Part shown: positions 54,764 to 64,000 of the stretch, in pieces
How the letters are laid out: the number at the start of each line of letters is the position of its first letter
How positions within the stretch are numbered: the first letter of the stretch is position 1
Source of the DNA: Candidatus Kuenenia hertensis
GTDB lineage: Bacteria; Planctomycetota; Brocadiia; Brocadiales; Brocadiaceae
Length of the DNA stretch: 64,000 nucleotides
Direction of reading: 5' to 3'
Assembly (NCBI GenBank): GCA_021646465.1
Contig: SOET01000006.1
Span: 62,001 to 126,000 of the forward strand
Notes under the pieces: model-generated
What the model was told of the DNA's origin: nothing
Database searches by the model: none
Seen by the model: the letters and a program-made list of their open reading frames with translations, nothing else
Made by a program: the position numbers and the translations under genes

Positions 54764-57289
54764 CTATGATTTTTTCTTCATCTCGACTTTGACGTCTATT
54801 TTTTCTCCCTCTTCCAAATCAACCTCTATCCTGGTTTTTTTGTAGCTATTCTTATTTACGGTAATCTCATACGTATCAGCATCTAAATTACCAAATTCAA
54901 AAAGGCCGTTTTCATCCGAATACGTTTTCCTTTTAATTTTTGTTGTATTCCCTTTCAGCTTCACTTTGGCAGATTTTAAAGGATTTTTATCTTCATCAAG
55001 CAAGCTACCCGATATCCTCCCCAATAATGCCGACAGATCGTTATCCAATTGCGAAATAAAGGTATCTATGCGACCGCTATAAGTTTCATATAAACTTCCA
55101 TCTGTGATCGGAAAATTTGAAGAATCTGTAATGCCGGCAATATATATGTCGCCTTCCGTCCCAATTGCCAATGCTTTTCCACAATCATACCCGGAATCTC
55201 CTCCTAAATAAGTAGAATCAAGCAAATCTTCCAGATCTTCGTTAAACCTGGAAATAAACACATCCGCATTTCCACCATTAAATGAAGTACTATACGCTCC
55301 TATCGTAGTAGGAAAATCTGACGAGTACGTACCGCCGGCAACATAAACATTCCCACCTGAATCAATGACAATGGCATTAGCATGTTCATATCCATAATCA
55401 TAATTAAACCCTTCTGAAGGATAACCAGAGCCTCCTAAAAATGTTGCGGCAACAAGGGTTTTTAAATCATTACTCAGTTTCAATACAAAAACATCAGAAC
55501 CAAAATTGTACGTTGTATCGTAAGCCCCGCTTGTTGTCGGAAAATTTGAAGAAATAGTGCCGCCTGTTATATAAATATTTCCATCAGGATCTCTTGCCAT
55601 ATCGTTTATGTAATCATTAAAATATCCTCCAATATACGTGGAAGCAACAAGGCCCTCCAGATTCTTATCAAACTTTGAAACAAAACCGTCAGCATCGTAT
55701 TCTCCCCCATTAAAGGAGGTATCATACGCATCTGAAGAAGGAAAGTCTGATGAGCCGGTAGTGCCTGCGACAAAAACATTTCCTTCGGAATCAACATTAA
55801 CGGCACTACTGTAATCAACCGAAGTGCCTCCCAAAAACGTTGAAGCCAAAAGACTCGTTAACTCTTTATTGAGTTTTGAAACAAAAACGTCACCGGAGCT
55901 ATCTGCCAGCGCGGTTTTATAAGCACTCGCAGAAGTCGGAAAATCAGAAGAATTGGTATCGCCTGTTATATAAATATTTCCCTCCGAATCGGTCGCAATA
56001 TCGCGGCTATGATCGCCAAATGTTCCCCCTAAATACGTAGAAGCCAGAAGATCGGCCAATTCCGTATCAAATTTAGAAACAAAGACATCTCCATAACTAT
56101 CATTTAACGACCCGGCATAAGCATTTGCGGTTGTTGGGAAATCTGACGAATTGGTATCTCCCGTCACATAAACATTTCCTTCCGAATCTAAAAACAAAGA
56201 TATCACCCGATCATCTGAAGACCCTCCCAAAAAAGTCGAAGCAAGAAGACTGGTTAAACTTGCATTTATCTTTGAAATGAAAGCATCACTACCTTCACCA
56301 CCGGTATCAAATGAACCACTGGTAGTCGGAAAATCGGAGGGAGAAGTATTACCCGCAACATAAATATATCCTTCCTCATCAATTGCCAAAGAACACACTT
56401 TATCATTGTCTGAACCACCCAGATATGTAGAGGCAAGAAGAGGATCGATTATAAGTTCCTTCGTTTTATCATAATCGTCCACATTAAAACCGTAGATCAT
56501 ACCGGAATCTTCCAAAACATAGGAAGCCGCAACATTGACCATTTCCCCATTTATTTCCTGATATGCTATCGGCCTGGTGAACGTAACCTTTCCCAGCGGT
56601 GTATCTGCCTCCAACTGCCCTTTTTCATTAACACTTAGTTCGTCTGCACCGTTTATACTCATCCTTATTACTTCAGGATTGGTATTTGGCTTAACATAAA
56701 AAAGTTTTTCCACATTATTCCCACAGGCTTTTAATACAACATCTACTCCATTAAAAACCTCTCCAAAACTTAAACATTCATACGTTGGGATGTTTCTTTG
56801 GCACTGCGATGGCTCTTTGCGCTTAAAATAGTTTACCTTCGTGACAGAAGGTTTTTCCCCCATTATATTAAGGGTTTTCCCGCCAATAAATTGCTCCTTA
56901 AGCACAACCCTCTTAATAGCAGGAACACTCTGATTATCAGTTTTTACCGTGCCTGCAACTGCGCCGTCATCAGGGCAAGGATATGTTTTGTTGTTATTTT
57001 TCCGCGTTTTCGTTCTTGAATCGTCTAAAGCATACGGTAATGAATAAACTATTTCGCCTTCATTTGTCACATAGATTATAGCGCCAAATGTATTAGCGTA
57101 AAATTTAACCCTTGCATCTATTTGGCCTTTATTAGGAATAAAGGGAACAGAAAGCATTTGTGCTTTTTTAATCATTTCTTGATGTAAGGTTCTTTGCTTA
57201 CCACATTGCTCTGCAAAAAGTGTCGACCCCAGGAACGTAAAAAATAATAACATAACTGATATTATTATGTTCTGGTTCACTTTATTCAT
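54764..57289 (-). CDS. exported SBBP-repeat beta-propeller protein
   Basis: An 841-aa secreted protein with a signal peptide (1-27), an N-terminal region of about 260 residues and then at least eight SBBP repeats of about 55 residues (pattern DSEGNIYITGDTNSSDFPTT ... VFVSKFN). The end holds a carboxypeptidase-regulatory-like domain (GRISGSLLDEDKNPLKSAKVKL, about 755-838). Such proteins are abundant in planctomycetes and probably face the cell exterior. Function unknown. Confidence 0.87.
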   Translation of the reverse strand: MNKVNQNIIISVMLLFFTFLGSTLFAEQCGKQRTLHQEMIKKAQMLSVPFIPNKGQIDARVKFYANTFGAIIYVTNEGEIVYSLPYALDDSRTKTRKNNNKTYPCPDDGAVAGTVKTDNQSVPAIKRVVLKEQFIGGKTLNIMGEKPSVTKVNYFKRKEPSQCQRNIPTYECLSFGEVFNGVDVVLKACGNNVEKLFYVKPNTNPEVIRMSINGADELSVNEKGQLEADTPLGKVTFTRPIAYQEINGEMVNVAASYVLEDSGMIYGFNVDDYDKTKELIIDPLLASTYLGGSDNDKVCSLAIDEEGYIYVAGNTSPSDFPTTSGSFDTGGEGSDAFISKINASLTSLLASTFLGGSSDDRVISLFLDSEGNVYVTGDTNSSDFPTTANAYAGSLNDSYGDVFVSKFDTELADLLASTYLGGTFGDHSRDIATDSEGNIYITGDTNSSDFPTSASAYKTALADSSGDVFVSKLNKELTSLLASTFLGGTSVDYSSAVNVDSEGNVFVAGTTGSSDFPSSDAYDTSFNGGEYDADGFVSKFDKNLEGLVASTYIGGYFNDYINDMARDPDGNIYITGGTISSNFPTTSGAYDTTYNFGSDVFVLKLSNDLKTLVAATFLGGSGYPSEGFNYDYGYEHANAIVIDSGGNVYVAGGTYSSDFPTTIGAYSTSFNGGNADVFISRFNEDLEDLLDSTYLGGDSGYDCGKALAIGTEGDIYIAGITDSSNFPITDGSLYETYSGRIDTFISQLDNDLSALLGRISGSLLDEDKNPLKSAKVKLKGNTTKIKRKTYSDENGLFEFGNLDADTYEITVNKNSYKKTRIEVDLEEGEKIDVKVEMKKKS

Positions 57290-57595: not shown

Positions 57596-59122
57596 TTATT
57601 TAGTAATGAGAGGTGTATTTTCCAGTATGGCATTTACCAGTCCGGGGATCGTATATTCCTCTGCTTTAATTGCAATATTTATTCCCATTTCTTCTGCTGT
57701 TTTTGAAGTAATGGGACCAATACTTGCAAACTGGACATGTCCGTTCAAAGAAGTGATATTTTCCCTTCCTATAAGCTGTACAAAATTTCTTACGGTTGAT
57801 GAACTTGTAAATGTAACAACATGAACCTCTCCATTTTTCATTTTCTCCAAAAGATTGATATCTTTTGGCTGTCCCATAATGGTCTTGTACACAACCAAAT
57901 CAGTTACCTCGCCGCCTAATTTCTGTAATTCTTCCGGAAGATAACTTCTTGCAATGTCTGCCCTGGGAAGTAAAAACCGTTCTCCTTTTATCACCGTTAC
58001 GTTTTTCAATTCTTCCACCACAGATTCCGCCACAAACTTTGGCGGTTTGCAATCAACCCTGATATGATACTTTTCTATACCACCGGCAGTGGCAGGACCG
58101 ATTGCACATATTTTGAGGCCTTTCAGAACCCTTACATCCTTTCCCAATTCAAACAATCGGTTGAAAAAACTATCAACCCCATTAATGCTGGTAAATACAA
58201 GCCAATCATAAGAATGAATATTCTGTATTGCTTCATCAAGGAGTTGTATTGTATCGGGTTTTGCAATTTCAATGGCAGGAAACTCAATTACATTGGCACC
58301 AAATTCATATAACCTATCCGCAAAATCACTGGCCTGCTCTCTCGAGCGGGTAACGACAACCGTTTTTCCAAACAATGGTTTATTTTCAAACCAGTTAAGC
58401 TGATCACGCAATTTAACAACTTCACCAACGATGGTAATTGCCGGAGGCTTAACATTTTTTGCCTTTTCTACGATGGTACTCAGCGTACCGACAACCGTTT
58501 CCTGCCGGAAAGTAGTGCCCCACCGTATAACCGCTACCGGCGTATCCTCGGAACGCCCGTGTTTTATAAGCTGAGACGTAATATACGGAAGATTTTTCAC
58601 CCCCATATAAAATGCGAGAGTACCGATTCCCGTGCTTATCTTTGACCAATCAATAGAGCTTTCATTTTTCGTAGGATCTTCATGGCCGGTAATCAATCCA
58701 AAGGTAGAAGTAAACTCCCGATGTGTTACAGGAATTCCTGCATAGTTAGGAGTTGCAATGGCTGCGGTAATGCCTGGGACTACTTCAAAAGGAATTTTAT
58801 ACTCTTTCAGAACAAGGGCTTCTTCACCGCCTCGTCCGAAAACATATGGATCTCCACCCTTTAACCGGGTTACTACTTTATCTTCCAACGCTTTTTCCAC
58901 AAGGAGCTTATTAATATCATCCTGTTCAAGGGTATGGGAAGCACCCTGCTTTCCCACATATATCGTTTCCACTCCCGGCCTTGCGGCTTTAAGCAATTCA
59001 ACGTTTACAAGATAATCATAAACAATGACGTCTGCTTTTTTAATACACTCCAACCCTTTTACAGTTATAAGTTTTGGATCACCAGGCCCCGCACCCACTA
59101 AATACACAATACTGCGTTTCAT
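57596..59122 (-). CDS. fused uroporphyrinogen-III C-methyltransferase and uroporphyrinogen-III synthase (CobA-HemD)
   Basis: A 508-aa bifunctional tetrapyrrole enzyme. Residues 1-245 are the SUMT domain (VGAGPGDPKLITVKG, RLKGGDPYVFGRGGEE, TPVAVIRWGT), which makes precorrin-2. Residues 255-508 are the HemD domain (KTVVVTRSREQASDF, DWLVFTSINGVDSFF), which makes uroporphyrinogen III. The ATG at 59122 is preferred (AAAGG ten bases before, family start). The fusion supplies the branch point to sirohaem, cobalamin and haem d1, and with it the haem supply of this cytochrome-rich organism. Confidence 0.93.
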   Translation of the reverse strand: MKRSIVYLVGAGPGDPKLITVKGLECIKKADVIVYDYLVNVELLKAARPGVETIYVGKQGASHTLEQDDINKLLVEKALEDKVVTRLKGGDPYVFGRGGEEALVLKEYKIPFEVVPGITAAIATPNYAGIPVTHREFTSTFGLITGHEDPTKNESSIDWSKISTGIGTLAFYMGVKNLPYITSQLIKHGRSEDTPVAVIRWGTTFRQETVVGTLSTIVEKAKNVKPPAITIVGEVVKLRDQLNWFENKPLFGKTVVVTRSREQASDFADRLYEFGANVIEFPAIEIAKPDTIQLLDEAIQNIHSYDWLVFTSINGVDSFFNRLFELGKDVRVLKGLKICAIGPATAGGIEKYHIRVDCKPPKFVAESVVEELKNVTVIKGERFLLPRADIARSYLPEELQKLGGEVTDLVVYKTIMGQPKDINLLEKMKNGEVHVVTFTSSSTVRNFVQLIGRENITSLNGHVQFASIGPITSKTAEEMGINIAIKAEEYTIPGLVNAILENTPLITK

Positions 59123-59380
59123 CAATAAAATACCTTTCCCTAATATAATCAAAATAAATTTTTAGTCACATCATATTGAAATCTTGTTGTTTAGTCAAAT
59201 TGTTTTATTCTTCGCCCCCCAAAACCTCCCCCATAAATTTTCGTAATAGTTTAGTTTTTTGAAAAAACATGATTTTTTAACTATTTTGCAACCCTGACAG
59301 GGTTAAACCGTCAAACAGGATTTACCTTATATTGTTACAATTTTTCAAAAAGCTACACGGTTACAAATTTTCTGATTGCT

Positions 59381-61192
59381 TTAATTTTGCGCAAAGTCAC
59401 CGGAATTCAGCTCTATATCTTTGTAACGTTCCATAATCCGGCCTATTGCTTCAATTACATTTTCTCTGACATCTTCGTCTTCACTATTTACGAATGCCTT
59501 AAGGGCAAGGAGTGTTTTTGGAGTTCCGACTCTGCCAAGCGCCCAGGTAGCCGAACCTACCACCAAAGGAGATTCATCTTTTAGCGCCCAGACCAAAGGG
59601 GTGACGGATCTCGCATCACCCAGCCAGCCAAGTATCTGTGCCGCACGACTTCTCGTATGTTCATTAACATCATTCAAAGAGCTTATTAAAGACATTACTG
59701 CAGGAGCACCTATCTTTATCAGCGCCCAACTTGCTTTACGCCTGGCAGATTCTTCGTTGTCCTGCAAAGCCTTTATCAAAAAAGGAACTGCTTTTTCTCC
59801 CATAGAAGCCAATGCCCACGCTGCTTTTGTACGGGCAAATGATGCATCGCTCTCTGAATCGGCAACCAGGATATCGTACAATATCGTAATTGCTTTATCA
59901 TTTCCGGTATTGCTTACCGCTTCAATGCACGCCTCTTTAACAAGCCAGTTCTTTTCTTTTCCAAGCACCTCAAACAGAGGAAAAGCTGAATTTTGATTTC
60001 CTAAAGTACTCAACGCCCTTGCAATATCATATTTTACATTTATGTCGGGTTCTATTTGCAACCTGTCAATAAGCGCCTGTACTGATTGTATTGCAACAAG
60101 CCTTTTTAATGCCAATGCCGCTTCCCTGCGAACTCCGGTATTTTTATCATCTAAAAGCGGTTCTATCTGCGCCGCAATAGTACTATTCCCGCAAAAACTC
60201 AATGACCAGACGGCATTCTGTTTTATCTCTGCATTTTTCTTTTTAAGAAGTTTCAGAAGCGGCGGTACCGTGTATTTTGGAGGAAGAACCGCCAATGTTA
60301 TTGCCGCAGTCCGCGATTCATCTTTATCCGCACCCTGCAACGTTTTTAACAGGGTTTTAAGTTTTTGGTTAATAAACGGGTCGTCGCCAGCTATCGCAAT
60401 CGGCCTGCTTTCAGGTTGTATTTTCTTTATTTCTTTAGCCGAGTTGACCAAAGTGTTCATATTCAAAACATCCATAGCTACGTATGGATAGTCAACGAGA
60501 AGAACATCTACCCCCTTCCGTATTGCCTTCTTCATGATACGTCTGTCATCATTCTCCAGTATGGAAGTAAATGAATATTTTTTTTCTTCGCGAATTCGTT
60601 TCAATTTTTCTTCGTTCAAACCTCCTGGGGAAACATAGACCAGTCCCTTTCCAGGGGATTCAGGACTTTTTGAATTAAAGCTCCTCATTGCCCCCCACCA
60701 ATATACTTGTGGAAACATCTCATATGTTCTCACCAATTCCGCAACTTGTTCTTCCAGAAAAATCTGTTTTACATTTAAAATCAGCTTCAGTTTATTAATT
60801 TTACAAAACATCAACACATCAGATAGCAAAGGAACCCGCTCACCCTTAAATTCAATACCCCTCCATAACCCTGCATCGTACTGTTGCAATTCCGAATATA
60901 ATAACTGGTCCACCCGCCCCATTCCATCTGTTGTCCTGTCAATTGTTTCGTCATTCATCAATATTAACCGGCCATCCTTTGTCCTGCGCACATCCACCAA
61001 AATACCGTCAACTCCCAACTCTACCGCCCTATTTAAGGCGGCAAATGTATTTTCAGGCGCCTCTTCCAATATGCCCCGGTTTACAAAAATTTCTACACTT
61101 TTGTTATTATCCGCGTAAAGCTGCCTTCCAAAAATCACAGCAAAAAGCACAAATATTATTTTTGTATAACTGTTTTTTTTATTTATCTGCAT
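59381..61192 (-). CDS. degenerate GDPD-domain protein with HEAT repeats
   Basis: A 603-aa exported protein (signal peptide 1-27). Residues 32-250 have the glycerophosphodiester phosphodiesterase fold pattern (PENTFAALNRAVELGVDG, TKDGRLILMNDETIDRTTDG), but catalytic His, Glu and His are replaced by Asn38, Leu65 and Asn80; only Asp67 remains. Residues 280-590 are about nine HEAT/PBS-lyase-like repeats (for example DKNTGVRREAALALKRL). It is probably a non-enzymatic binding protein. Its start overlaps the LptC-like gene by 14 bases, tying it to LPS transport. Confidence 0.82.
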   Translation of the reverse strand: MQINKKNSYTKIIFVLFAVIFGRQLYADNNKSVEIFVNRGILEEAPENTFAALNRAVELGVDGILVDVRRTKDGRLILMNDETIDRTTDGMGRVDQLLYSELQQYDAGLWRGIEFKGERVPLLSDVLMFCKINKLKLILNVKQIFLEEQVAELVRTYEMFPQVYWWGAMRSFNSKSPESPGKGLVYVSPGGLNEEKLKRIREEKKYSFTSILENDDRRIMKKAIRKGVDVLLVDYPYVAMDVLNMNTLVNSAKEIKKIQPESRPIAIAGDDPFINQKLKTLLKTLQGADKDESRTAAITLAVLPPKYTVPPLLKLLKKKNAEIKQNAVWSLSFCGNSTIAAQIEPLLDDKNTGVRREAALALKRLVAIQSVQALIDRLQIEPDINVKYDIARALSTLGNQNSAFPLFEVLGKEKNWLVKEACIEAVSNTGNDKAITILYDILVADSESDASFARTKAAWALASMGEKAVPFLIKALQDNEESARRKASWALIKIGAPAVMSLISSLNDVNEHTRSRAAQILGWLGDARSVTPLVWALKDESPLVVGSATWALGRVGTPKTLLALKAFVNSEDEDVRENVIEAIGRIMERYKDIELNSGDFAQN

Positions 61193-63173
61193 TGCCCGAT
61201 TCTTTACTAATGAGCTGCCAGTGCGGCCTGCCTTCCCATGTTATCCTGTCCGCAGTCATATCAAAATAAACCTTTTCCGAAAATGTCCTGGAACCTTCTT
61301 TTCGTAATTCTGCCTTCGGATTACCTGTCAATACCCCCATATTTTGTGCTAAATCCCACGTAAAAAACGAGCCAAACCCCTCGCTGCCGCCTAAATCTTC
61401 GCTATAAAAATAAACGTTGCCCGCGGTAATGATTTTTGAAATCTCTCCGTTTGGTCCCATATAAGCATCGACCTGGTCTCCGCTCAGCCTTTGTCCTCTT
61501 TGAGAAACCTCTACTTCTTCAAAAAAACTTGCCTTTTTTATTACTTCATCATATTCCATTTTGTTTACCCAAACAACCTTAATGCCTGTTCCTTCCTTTT
61601 CTTCAGCACGGTGCATTCCCTTTCCTATTTCATACAAACTTCCTTTTCCCTCGCATACTATTTTTTCTTCATTTTCAAAGAAAGAAACCTTGGGGGAAAT
61701 AATTTGTCTTTTGTTTCCTTCCCTGAGAATAGCAAAAGGGTTCCCATATAAAACAGTTACTTTATCGCTTACATTCCAGGCAACCTGATCACCAACTGCC
61801 TCGCTAAACAAATCACCTTTTTTATCAATAATATGAACCCTCTCTTTTGCATCGAGCGTTTTCAGGTCATAATCATCATTATTAAACGTGACGTTTAAAT
61901 TATCACAACGAAGAATAGAATCAGCCCTTCTGACTTCTATGTTTTTTTCGAAACTGGCTTCCCGGGTATCTCCAAAATAATTCATTTTCCCGTCCCATTT
62001 AACATTAATAGTGTCTTCCTTCATTTTAGCTTTTGCAGGTTTCCCCTCCTGATTATCTTTCTCTTTGGGTGTTACCTTCAAACTACCTGCTGTCGGGACA
62101 TTTATTTTATTAACGGTTTTATAAAAAATCATTTTTAAGGCATCAATACTGAGATCATCCCTTATAAATTCTGCTTTCCTGGCGTCTTCCAGAATGGCGC
62201 TTTGCGTATTAACATCCCAGGAAAGTGTATCTCCTTTTGCAATTTTTGCCCCCTCCGAGGCAAGCACATTTCCACTTGCAATTGCCTGTTTCGTCTTTTT
62301 TGTCTCCGCGTCAAGAAAAATAACAAGTTTATCTGAAAATACGGTAGAACTGCCCTTCTTTACTTCAACATTATCATTGAAAGTCATAATATTTGAATCC
62401 GGCTTCCTGTCAAACACAAGAGGTCCACTGGAACGAATGGTTGTCTTTTCTCCGGTTTTTTCCTCCTCAACAATTTTTCCCGTGTCCGGTTCCTCAAATC
62501 CACGATCTTGTCCAGGCTCTTCTTCAGAAATAAAAAAAAGATCATTTTTCACACCGTCCATTTCCATTTCAGCGTCTTTTTTGATCCACATCTTTCTATT
62601 AACAAGATCTATCTCACACCCTTTACCCGTAATCACAAGACCGGTTCTGGTAATAGTAACAAACTCATCCGTCTGCACCGCCCTTTTCTCAGGCAAATAT
62701 CTCATGTTTTCAGTACATAACCGCGTTTCCTGATCCAGATGAACCACAACGTTATCGGAAAGATACCCTTCATTCGATGTCTTATCCATCTCACCGATAT
62801 CCGATGTAATTATTACCTTTTGCGCTTCATTTTCCGGATTTTCATCATCCATTACTTCAATTTCCGGTTCAATGATTTTATATCTGTCATTCTCCAGCAA
62901 AAAAGTATTTCTTCCTCTCATAACAAACGTTTCATTTCCTTCCTTATTATAATTGGGAAGGAAAAGGTCATCAACCGTTTGAGTTATCTTTTCGGATTTT
63001 CTGATGTCTTCTATTATGCGCTTATTTTTCAATGAATCTTCTTGCGGAACAAGGCTTTCTCCCGGTTTTTCATCTGGGTTTTTTGATTCAGGCTTTGAGA
63101 GAACAACTGAAACGATTATTGCAATGAGGCAAACGATGGGAATGCCTAAAAATATATATCTTCGCTTAGTCAT
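61179..63173 (-). CDS. LptC/OstA-family protein with multiple OstA-like domains
   Basis: A 664-aa protein anchored by an N-terminal transmembrane helix (8-27). Segments with the OstA/LptA pattern recur (LSDNVVVHLDQETRLCTENMRYL, FNDNVEVKKGSSTVFSDKLVIFL, FEKNIEVRRADSILRCDNLNVTF, FFEEVEVSQRGQRLSGDQVDAYM). They indicate several fused beta-jellyroll units of the LPS bridge, with LptC-like architecture at the start. Normally LptC (190 aa) and LptA (180 aa) are separate. It lies just downstream of kdsD-kdsC, as lptC does in E. coli. Confidence 0.83.
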   Translation of the reverse strand: MTKRRYIFLGIPIVCLIAIIVSVVLSKPESKNPDEKPGESLVPQEDSLKNKRIIEDIRKSEKITQTVDDLFLPNYNKEGNETFVMRGRNTFLLENDRYKIIEPEIEVMDDENPENEAQKVIITSDIGEMDKTSNEGYLSDNVVVHLDQETRLCTENMRYLPEKRAVQTDEFVTITRTGLVITGKGCEIDLVNRKMWIKKDAEMEMDGVKNDLFFISEEEPGQDRGFEEPDTGKIVEEEKTGEKTTIRSSGPLVFDRKPDSNIMTFNDNVEVKKGSSTVFSDKLVIFLDAETKKTKQAIASGNVLASEGAKIAKGDTLSWDVNTQSAILEDARKAEFIRDDLSIDALKMIFYKTVNKINVPTAGSLKVTPKEKDNQEGKPAKAKMKEDTINVKWDGKMNYFGDTREASFEKNIEVRRADSILRCDNLNVTFNNDDYDLKTLDAKERVHIIDKKGDLFSEAVGDQVAWNVSDKVTVLYGNPFAILREGNKRQIISPKVSFFENEEKIVCEGKGSLYEIGKGMHRAEEKEGTGIKVVWVNKMEYDEVIKKASFFEEVEVSQRGQRLSGDQVDAYMGPNGEISKIITAGNVYFYSEDLGGSEGFGSFFTWDLAQNMGVLTGNPKAELRKEGSRTFSEKVYFDMTADRITWEGRPHWQLISKESGNADK

Positions 63174-63269: not shown

Positions 63270-63782
63270 TTATATCTGTTTGTCCCCGTATCGCTCCATG
63301 ATAATAAACCATTTCTCCTGAAACTTTATTATCTTCTCGGCAACTTCCCTCACTGCACCGCATCCGCCTTTGGCTTTTGTGACATAAGAAGAATACTGCT
63401 TTACGATGGGCATAGCATTAGCAACTGCAACAGGAAAACCAACGCGATAAAATATGGGGAGGTCTATAAGGTCATCGCCAATATAACACACTTCCTCATC
63501 TTTTAGAGAATATTTTTCAAGAATCTCATTATAGACATCCAGTTTATTTTTGACTCCCTGGTGCACCTCTGCAATATTTAACTCTTTTGCACGATGATCT
63601 ACCGCTTTGCATATCCTCCCACTTATTATTGCCGTTTTTATATTGACACGATGAAGATATGATATTCCTGTGCCGTCCAGCACACTGAAAGCCTTCGTTT
63701 CCCTGCCATCGTCATCAATATAGATGGCGCCATCTGTTAAAACTCCATCAACATCAATAATAACAAGTTTTATCTCTTTCAC
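63270..63782 (-). CDS. kdsC: 3-deoxy-D-manno-octulosonate 8-phosphate phosphatase
   Basis: A 170-aa HAD-family phosphatase (tetrameric C0 type) removing phosphate from Kdo-8-P. Catalytic aspartates lie in VIIDVDGVLTDG, Thr/Ser in IISGR and the metal motif in YIGDDLIDLPIF. It starts 5 bases after the kdsD stop and precedes the LptC-like gene, so these genes form an operon for the LPS inner core. Confidence 0.95.
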   Translation of the reverse strand: MKEIKLVIIDVDGVLTDGAIYIDDDGRETKAFSVLDGTGISYLHRVNIKTAIISGRICKAVDHRAKELNIAEVHQGVKNKLDVYNEILEKYSLKDEEVCYIGDDLIDLPIFYRVGFPVAVANAMPIVKQYSSYVTKAKGGCGAVREVAEKIIKFQEKWFIIMERYGDKQI

Positions 63783-63787
63783 ACTAT

Positions 63788-64000
63788 TTAAAATCTAACC
63801 TCCAATAAATCCTGCACATCAACGATACCAACTGGCGTATAAAAATCGTCAACTACAGGAATTTGGTCAATTTTATTTTCTCTGAGTATTTTATATGCTT
63901 CTTCAACTAAGCAACGATTATTAATTACCTTGGGGGAAGGAGTCATTACCTCTTTTATTGCCTTGCATAAAAATGAAGTGCCTTCTCTTAAAAGCCTTCT
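63788..64000 (-). CDS. kdsD: arabinose 5-phosphate isomerase KdsD/KpsF, C-terminal part (5' end outside window)
   Basis: The last 70 codons of a protein with a CBS domain: EVMTPSPKVINNRCLVEEA and NKIDQIPVVDDFYTPVGIVD. The context (directly before kdsC) and the final DLL ending match KdsD, which makes arabinose 5-phosphate for Kdo. The SIS domain lies outside. Confidence 0.88.
   Translation of the reverse strand, partial: RRLLREGTSFLCKAIKEVMTPSPKVINNRCLVEEAYKILRENKIDQIPVVDDFYTPVGIVDVQDLLEVRF

Follow-up and report, generated by a model that had tools for sequence, protein, structure and literature searches.

The locus and its genes

The window analysed here is a stretch of 64,000 nucleotides from Candidatus Kuenenia hertensis, and its minus strand carries a gene for a 603-residue protein in which a GDPD domain is joined to HEAT repeats. 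The reading frame, strand and coordinates given in a preliminary description of this DNA were right, and the fusion that it reported is borne out by Pfam (GDPD, E 1.1e-23, residues 39–143; HEAT_2, E 4.9e-47) and by an AlphaFold2 model. The features are:

59381..61192, minus strand: gene for the pseudo-GDPD/HEAT protein, 603 aa, ATG start (open reading frame, Pfam, AlphaFold2 model, orthologues)
61112..61192, minus strand: putative N-terminal export signal, residues 1–27, with a basic start, a hydrophobic helix and then LYA/D as the putative cleavage site
60455..61102, minus strand: GDPD-fold barrel, residues 31–246, with the catalytic set lost (Pfam, model, alignments, structure match)
59408..60379, minus strand: HEAT solenoid, residues 272–595, about ten two-helix repeats (Pfam, model, structure match)
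61179..63173, minus strand: lptCA, a fused LptC and LptA-repeat gene, 664 aa, overlapping the pseudo-GDPD gene by 14 nt
63270..63782, minus strand: kdsC, KDO-8-phosphate phosphatase (TIGR01670, 181 bits, cut-off 107)
63788..64000, minus strand: 3' part of a kdsD/kpsF-type arabinose-5-phosphate isomerase gene (TIGR00393, 270 bits, cut-off 204)
57596..59152, minus strand: cobA/hemD, a uroporphyrinogen-III methyltransferase/synthase fusion and conserved downstream neighbour

The overlap with an LptC/OstA gene had been noticed earlier, and its length is the 14 nt given above. The whole kdsD/kpsF-type gene, present in the related locus L126, encodes 329 aa. Next to the cluster, at 54764–57289 on the minus strand, lies a gene for an 841-aa protein with DUF7948, SBBP beta-propeller repeats and a carboxypeptidase-regulatory-like domain.

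Protein parts and predicted fold

The PF03009 match of the window protein is above cut-off, and the same family was matched in all 34 orthologues scanned; among NCBIfam models 13 match the protein, none of them at its curated cut-off. The AlphaFold2 model, built from an alignment of 34 orthologues (pLDDT 84.0, pTM 0.80), predicts a helix at residues 3–21, a barrel at 31–246, a poorly ordered linker at ~247–269 and ~20 helices from residue 272. Residues 32–244 of the model superpose best on true GDPDs, namely 1zcc (Z 24.8, 2.3 Å, 210 residues) and 2pz0 (Z 24.4), both over about 210 residues at 2.3–2.4 Å, and this is the outcome of the structure prediction that the preliminary description had proposed as a check. 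The solenoid matches the structures of HEAT-type alphaRep proteins. A hydrophobic N-terminal stretch (Kyte–Doolittle mean >1.6 over 12 residues) precedes the domain in 37/37 orthologues, and we infer that the protein is exported and periplasmic.

Distribution and phylogeny

A search of the class found the gene in 57 of 62 Brocadiales genomes, although two of these, G039 and G057, have no more than short frames (85 and 117 aa). Matches were present in 5 of the 13 class genomes outside the order, the best scoring 75–153 bits against 311–422 bits for full-length members from the order; no comparable match outside Brocadiales, that is none above 153 bits, was found in these 13 genomes. When 392 Planctomycetota genomes were searched, 35 matched at E 1e-40 or better and 34 of these belong to Brocadiales, the lone match from elsewhere (G289) being a 307-aa frame at 141 bits. 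The matches from outside the order appear to be ordinary GDPDs. A scan of ~85,000 species genomes (GTDB r220) with two peptide patterns, which a divergent relative could escape, gave no comparable match outside the anammox order among the best 80 of 194 loci. Of these 80, 42 have E values of 6e-52 or lower, and the others begin at 1e-31; the genus-named loci among the 42 are from Brocadia, Jettenia, Loosdrechtia, Scalindua and Anammoxibacter, all of them anammox genera, and the remainder are from Brocadiaceae, Planctomycetota or uncultured bins without a genus name. In these searches the pseudo-GDPD/HEAT protein was found only in Brocadiales, to which it appears to be specific. Two orthologue frames are shortened (L129:5001-6050 and L157:4902-6272, 349 and 456 aa), and these may be draft errors or real truncations.

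Five of the 62 order genomes have neither the gene nor lptCA. We rejected this as evidence of co-loss and read the absences as assembly gaps, because four of the five have no close homologue of cobA/hemD either, and in the fifth (G047) cobA/hemD stands on a contig from which both other genes are missing.

For the comparisons below, a family alignment of 52 rows was assembled from 37 orthologues in 37 genomes (the window's own included) and 15 non-duplicates from the GTDB r220 collection, 27 of the 42 close loci being left out as duplicates. The controls were 42 other GDPDs, 38 of them the rest of the pattern-scan loci and 4 from Brocadiales genomes. In a FastTree phylogeny the 52 rows cluster together with none of the 42 controls among them, albeit with weak node support (0.17), and the Brocadiales families f2, f4 and f5 are each grouped with support of 0.98–1.0. 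Of 39 order genomes searched, 37 have a PF03009 match, and in 33 of these 37 the protein is the sole one. A few order genomes hold an extra, ordinary GDPD, in one case (L068, genome G013, contig C44) fused to a GPDPase membrane domain.

Gene neighbourhood

The order kdsD-kdsC-lptCA-pseudoGDPD-cobA/hemD recurs among the 37 loci. The preliminary description had proposed a look at homologues beside lptC, and lptCA is indeed directly upstream on the same strand in 34/37; measured between first-start reading frames the gap is ≤60 nt in 30 of the 34, 13 of these being overlaps. kdsC is present in 31/37 loci, and cobA/hemD is on the same strand in all 29 where it was found. One of the three exceptions (L062) breaks off where its contig ends, and lptCA lies close to the edge of a different contig. 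The other two (L045 and L048) are the Anammoxibacteraceae loci, in which the pseudo-GDPD gene is unlinked and kdsC and lptCA lie together elsewhere. Three of the four families in which the gene was found retain the link. At both of these loci (L045:5937-9600 and L048:5593-8939) the pseudo-GDPD gene adjoins a gene for an HtrA-like protease (Trypsin_2 and PDZ).

An LPS pathway exists in these bacteria, since LpxC was found in 72 of 75 class genomes and the window genome has two LptF/LptG-type genes. Throughout the anammox order a single chain combines LptC with LptA repeats. LptCA is modelled (pLDDT 80.1, pTM 0.65) with a membrane helix at residues 4–25 and four beta-rich modules, the LptC-like one and three more, and is possibly the whole LPS bridge in a single polypeptide.

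Rate covariation with LptCA

The pairwise distances of the pseudo-GDPD/HEAT protein covary with those of LptCA, with a partial r of 0.64 when KdsC and CobA/HemD are held constant, whereas the other gene pairs, with the remaining two genes held, give values of 0.02–0.40. This test used 26 loci and the window; the other 11 of the 37 loci were dropped, either because they lack one of the four genes or, in the case of L001, because the window took its place. With a fast-evolving control, one BatD-like envelope protein (Pfam BatD; the gene was present in 30 genomes, of which 19 and the window were used), the value between the protein and LptCA is 0.53 (p 0.0005) and that between the protein and the control 0.13 (p 0.13); LptCA itself covaries with the control at 0.30 (p 0.005). 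These p values come from permutation of labels, which ignores phylogeny. Split by domain, the between-protein values are 0.38–0.65, on a par with the within-protein values of 0.52 and 0.53. The covariation with LptC and LptA is supportive of a partnership rather than proof of one.

The protein had been suggested to be a new accessory part of LPS transport. The adjacency to lptCA and the covariation of rates speak for this proposal, and it is weakened by the separation of the genes in Anammoxibacteraceae. A tetrapyrrole role, as the cobA/hemD neighbour might suggest, is less likely, given the partial r of 0.21 with CobA/HemD and an N-terminus resembling an export signal. The Anammoxibacteraceae loci instead raise the alternative that the protein is a scaffold for another envelope process, such as quality control with the HtrA-like protease, and that its place beside lptCA is a relic of an old operon. 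Operon neighbours are not always partners, as the tetrapyrrole enzymes encoded on the opposite side illustrate. We nevertheless consider this rather unlikely, as the rate covariation picks out LptCA over CobA/HemD, KdsC and the BatD-like control, and the link to lptCA has been preserved in most of the families.

Catalytic positions in the window protein

The following codons were placed by alignment:

61079..61081, minus strand: Asn38, at the position of the His of the HRG motif
60998..61000, minus strand: Leu65, at the position of the metal Glu
60992..60994, minus strand: Asp67, the metal Asp, kept
60953..60955, minus strand: Asn80, at the position of the catalytic His of the HD motif
60773..60775, minus strand: Asn140, at the position of the third acidic metal ligand (ELK motif)

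In alignments with 2pz0 and 1zcc and with the 42 other GDPDs, Asn38, Arg39, Leu65, Asp67, Asn80, Asn140 and Lys142 of the window protein stand in the columns of the enzyme His, Arg, Glu, Asp, His, Glu and Lys, column 140 being less surely aligned in one control group, where many members show Asp beside a gap. Both catalytic His, those of the HRG and HD motifs, are therefore absent, and the set of three acidic ligands is incomplete (Leu65, Asp67, Asn140). The three replacements listed in the preliminary description, Asn38 for His, Leu65 for Glu and Asn80 for His, are real and Asp67 is kept as it stated, but it missed a fourth loss, that of the acidic ligand (Glu or Asp) at position 140.

The spacing of positions 38, 65 and 80 equals that of His51, Glu78 and His93 in the enzyme LpgD. 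In the study of that enzyme (PMC10404611), the E78A and H93A mutants are deficient in LPG hydrolysis, H51A retains significant activity, so that the first His is not essential, and stabilisation by Mn is lost only in E78A. The window protein is therefore without both of the residues essential in LpgD, and without the third acidic ligand as well.

The catalytic set across the family

The full set HREDH at positions 38, 39, 65, 67 and 80 is found in 0/52 family rows and in 41/42 controls. Column by column, His38 is retained in 25 of the 52 rows, Arg39 in 5 (lost in 47), Glu65 in 32, Asp67 in 50 and His80 in 13, and column 140 holds Asn in 43, Asp in 9 and Glu in none. Both catalytic His occur together in 2/52. 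Glu65, His80 or both are gone in 42/52, and the 10 rows that keep Glu65, Asp67 and His80 are mostly from Scalindua. One row (L033) combines all of His38, Glu65, Asp67 and His80, yet it carries His39 and Asn140. Intact residues in close homologues, which on the preliminary description would speak against a pseudo-enzyme, are seen in part: the two same-genus relatives (L031 and L032) both keep His38, but have Leu65 and Asn or Ser80 in place of Glu and His.

The losses follow no single pattern. Column 39 often holds His and column 80 often Cys or His, and the seven catalytic positions show 29 different states in the 52 rows, with no residue set in common. Family f2 has Lys65 in 6/6 rows and Arg80 in 5/6. 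Lys65 is accompanied by Asp140 in 7 of the 8 rows that have it, against 2 of the 44 others (Fisher p 2e-6, uncorrected for shared descent), which suggests that a Lys65–Asp140 salt bridge may stand in place of the lost metal. Taken as family traits, the motif losses first described hold in that loss of the full set is general; the NRG motif is a detail of the species, and Glu65 is still common. Full-length orthologues are present across the order and have the loss of the full set in common, so the catalytic loss is not due to chance.

Selection on the domain

Site rates were estimated under LG+G8 from the 52 rows. Positions 38, 39, 65 and 80 lie at the 64th to 75th rate percentile of the domain, and their mean rate is 1.26 compared with 0.65 across the motif regions (53 sites; p 0.007, random four-site draws). 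Residue 140, at the 19th percentile, evolves slowly. In the family the PENT, DRTT and insert motifs hardly vary, in agreement with the earlier remark that the fold motifs around the catalytic residues are kept, and Asp67, Asp81 and the insert motif YDAG-W-F-GE-P are likewise conserved. Only 7 of the 216 domain sites are at least 80% conserved in other GDPDs and yet have that residue in less than 60% of the family, and His38, Arg39 and His80 are three of them. Since the catalytic columns are fast and the surrounding motifs constrained, the domain is under selection, but not for its old chemistry.

These data bear on two further readings. The preliminary description proposed that the pseudo-enzyme may bind an LPS precursor or the head group of a phospholipid; in a fuller form of this idea, the protein would be a sensor or carrier whose old pocket holds such a precursor, glycerol phosphate or the head group of a lipid. 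The conserved Asp67, Asp81, PENT, DRTT and insert motifs mean that a cavity may remain, and residue 140 is always Asn or Asp. One shared ligand should conserve its site, however, and the phosphate and metal contacts at 38, 39, 65 and 80 are among the less conserved positions and vary by lineage, to the point that one family has Lys65, mostly with Arg80, and Lys65 appears paired with Asp140, perhaps as a salt bridge for the metal. As the old phosphate and metal site is not conserved, we do not favour head-group binding and regard it as unlikely. Distinctly improbable is an altered or weak enzyme, at least in Scalinduaceae and some Brocadiaceae, that cleaves a periplasmic phosphodiester in envelope upkeep: the rows keeping Glu65, Asp67 and His80, the dispensable first His of LpgD (PMC10404611), the frequent His and Cys at columns 39 and 80 and the protein's standing as the only GDPD-family member in most of these genomes would fit, against which stand the near-general loss of Arg39, the complete loss of Glu140, the many catalytic states without a common set and, in the window protein, the absence of the two residues that LpgD needs.

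A putative adaptor of the LptCA bridge

The protein has an enzyme fold without the conserved catalytic motif and is kept by selection, which is what defines a pseudoenzyme. The earlier description of it as a pseudo-enzyme is well supported by the absence of the full set from every row, by catalytic columns faster than the motifs and by lineage-specific substitutions. Most likely it does not cleave phosphodiesters any more, although the Scalindua orthologues that keep Glu65, Asp67 and His80 may have residual activity.

Our preferred reading, to which we give a probability of roughly 0.5, is that it is a pseudoenzyme serving as a periplasmic adaptor, which binds the single-chain LptCA bridge and keeps it stable; we infer both the contact and the role. 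It is probably an undescribed helper of the LPS bridge to the outer membrane. In the ancestor of the order an exported GDPD would have been joined to HEAT repeats, and catalysis would then have been lost as the protein took on a structural part in LPS export. The GDPD and HEAT halves alike would have since evolved in step with LptC and LptA, and the HEAT arc and barrel would hold the long single-chain bridge, by analogy with LptY. The two Anammoxibacteraceae loci, where the gene is beside that of the HtrA-like protease and not lptCA, count against an LptCA adaptor. A more specific version can be put forward only tentatively: a dedicated anammox subunit of LPS export, in which a pseudo-phosphodiesterase and a HEAT arc clamp an LptCA of one LptC-like and three LptA-like modules, tied to the unusual anammox envelope. 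A single-chain LptCA bridge with a pseudo-GDPD clamp would be an Lpt architecture without a description in the literature searched.

Much fixed nitrogen goes back to the atmosphere through anammox bacteria, whose cell plan is unusual. The existence of a true outer membrane in these cells has been disputed, and genomic work argues for one (PMC3422733). An order-wide dead-enzyme protein beside LPS genes offers a handle on how the anammox outer membrane is made. It is also a warning for annotation, in that the Pfam family label alone would name it a phosphodiesterase.

Comparison with known systems

No earlier description of the pseudo-GDPD/HEAT protein, and no GDPD pseudoenzyme with HEAT repeats or a link to LPS, was found in a search of open-licence PMC papers. 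The HEAT repeat unit is shared with the phycobilin lyase/NblB HEAT models (NF045915 and NF058502), but the similarity, at 81 bits against a cut-off of 300, is a generic repeat match. For role, the working analogy is with two accessory lipoproteins that belong to the translocon for LPS, LptY and LptM; LptY binds and stabilises the LptD beta-taco domain of the Lpt machine (PMC12644819). LptY and LptM differ in being lipoproteins that act at LptD. With GDPDs of the GlpQ/UgpQ type (PF03009; 1zcc, 2pz0 and LpgD, 8ghh) the protein shares the barrel, the GDPD insert and the PENT, DRTT and D-x-P motifs, and it differs from them in the loss of the catalytic His, Arg and His and of the third acidic ligand and in the added HEAT solenoid. 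In this it resembles pseudoenzymes in general, which retain the fold, lose the catalytic motif and often serve as regulators or scaffolds (PMC5106787, PMC10211241).
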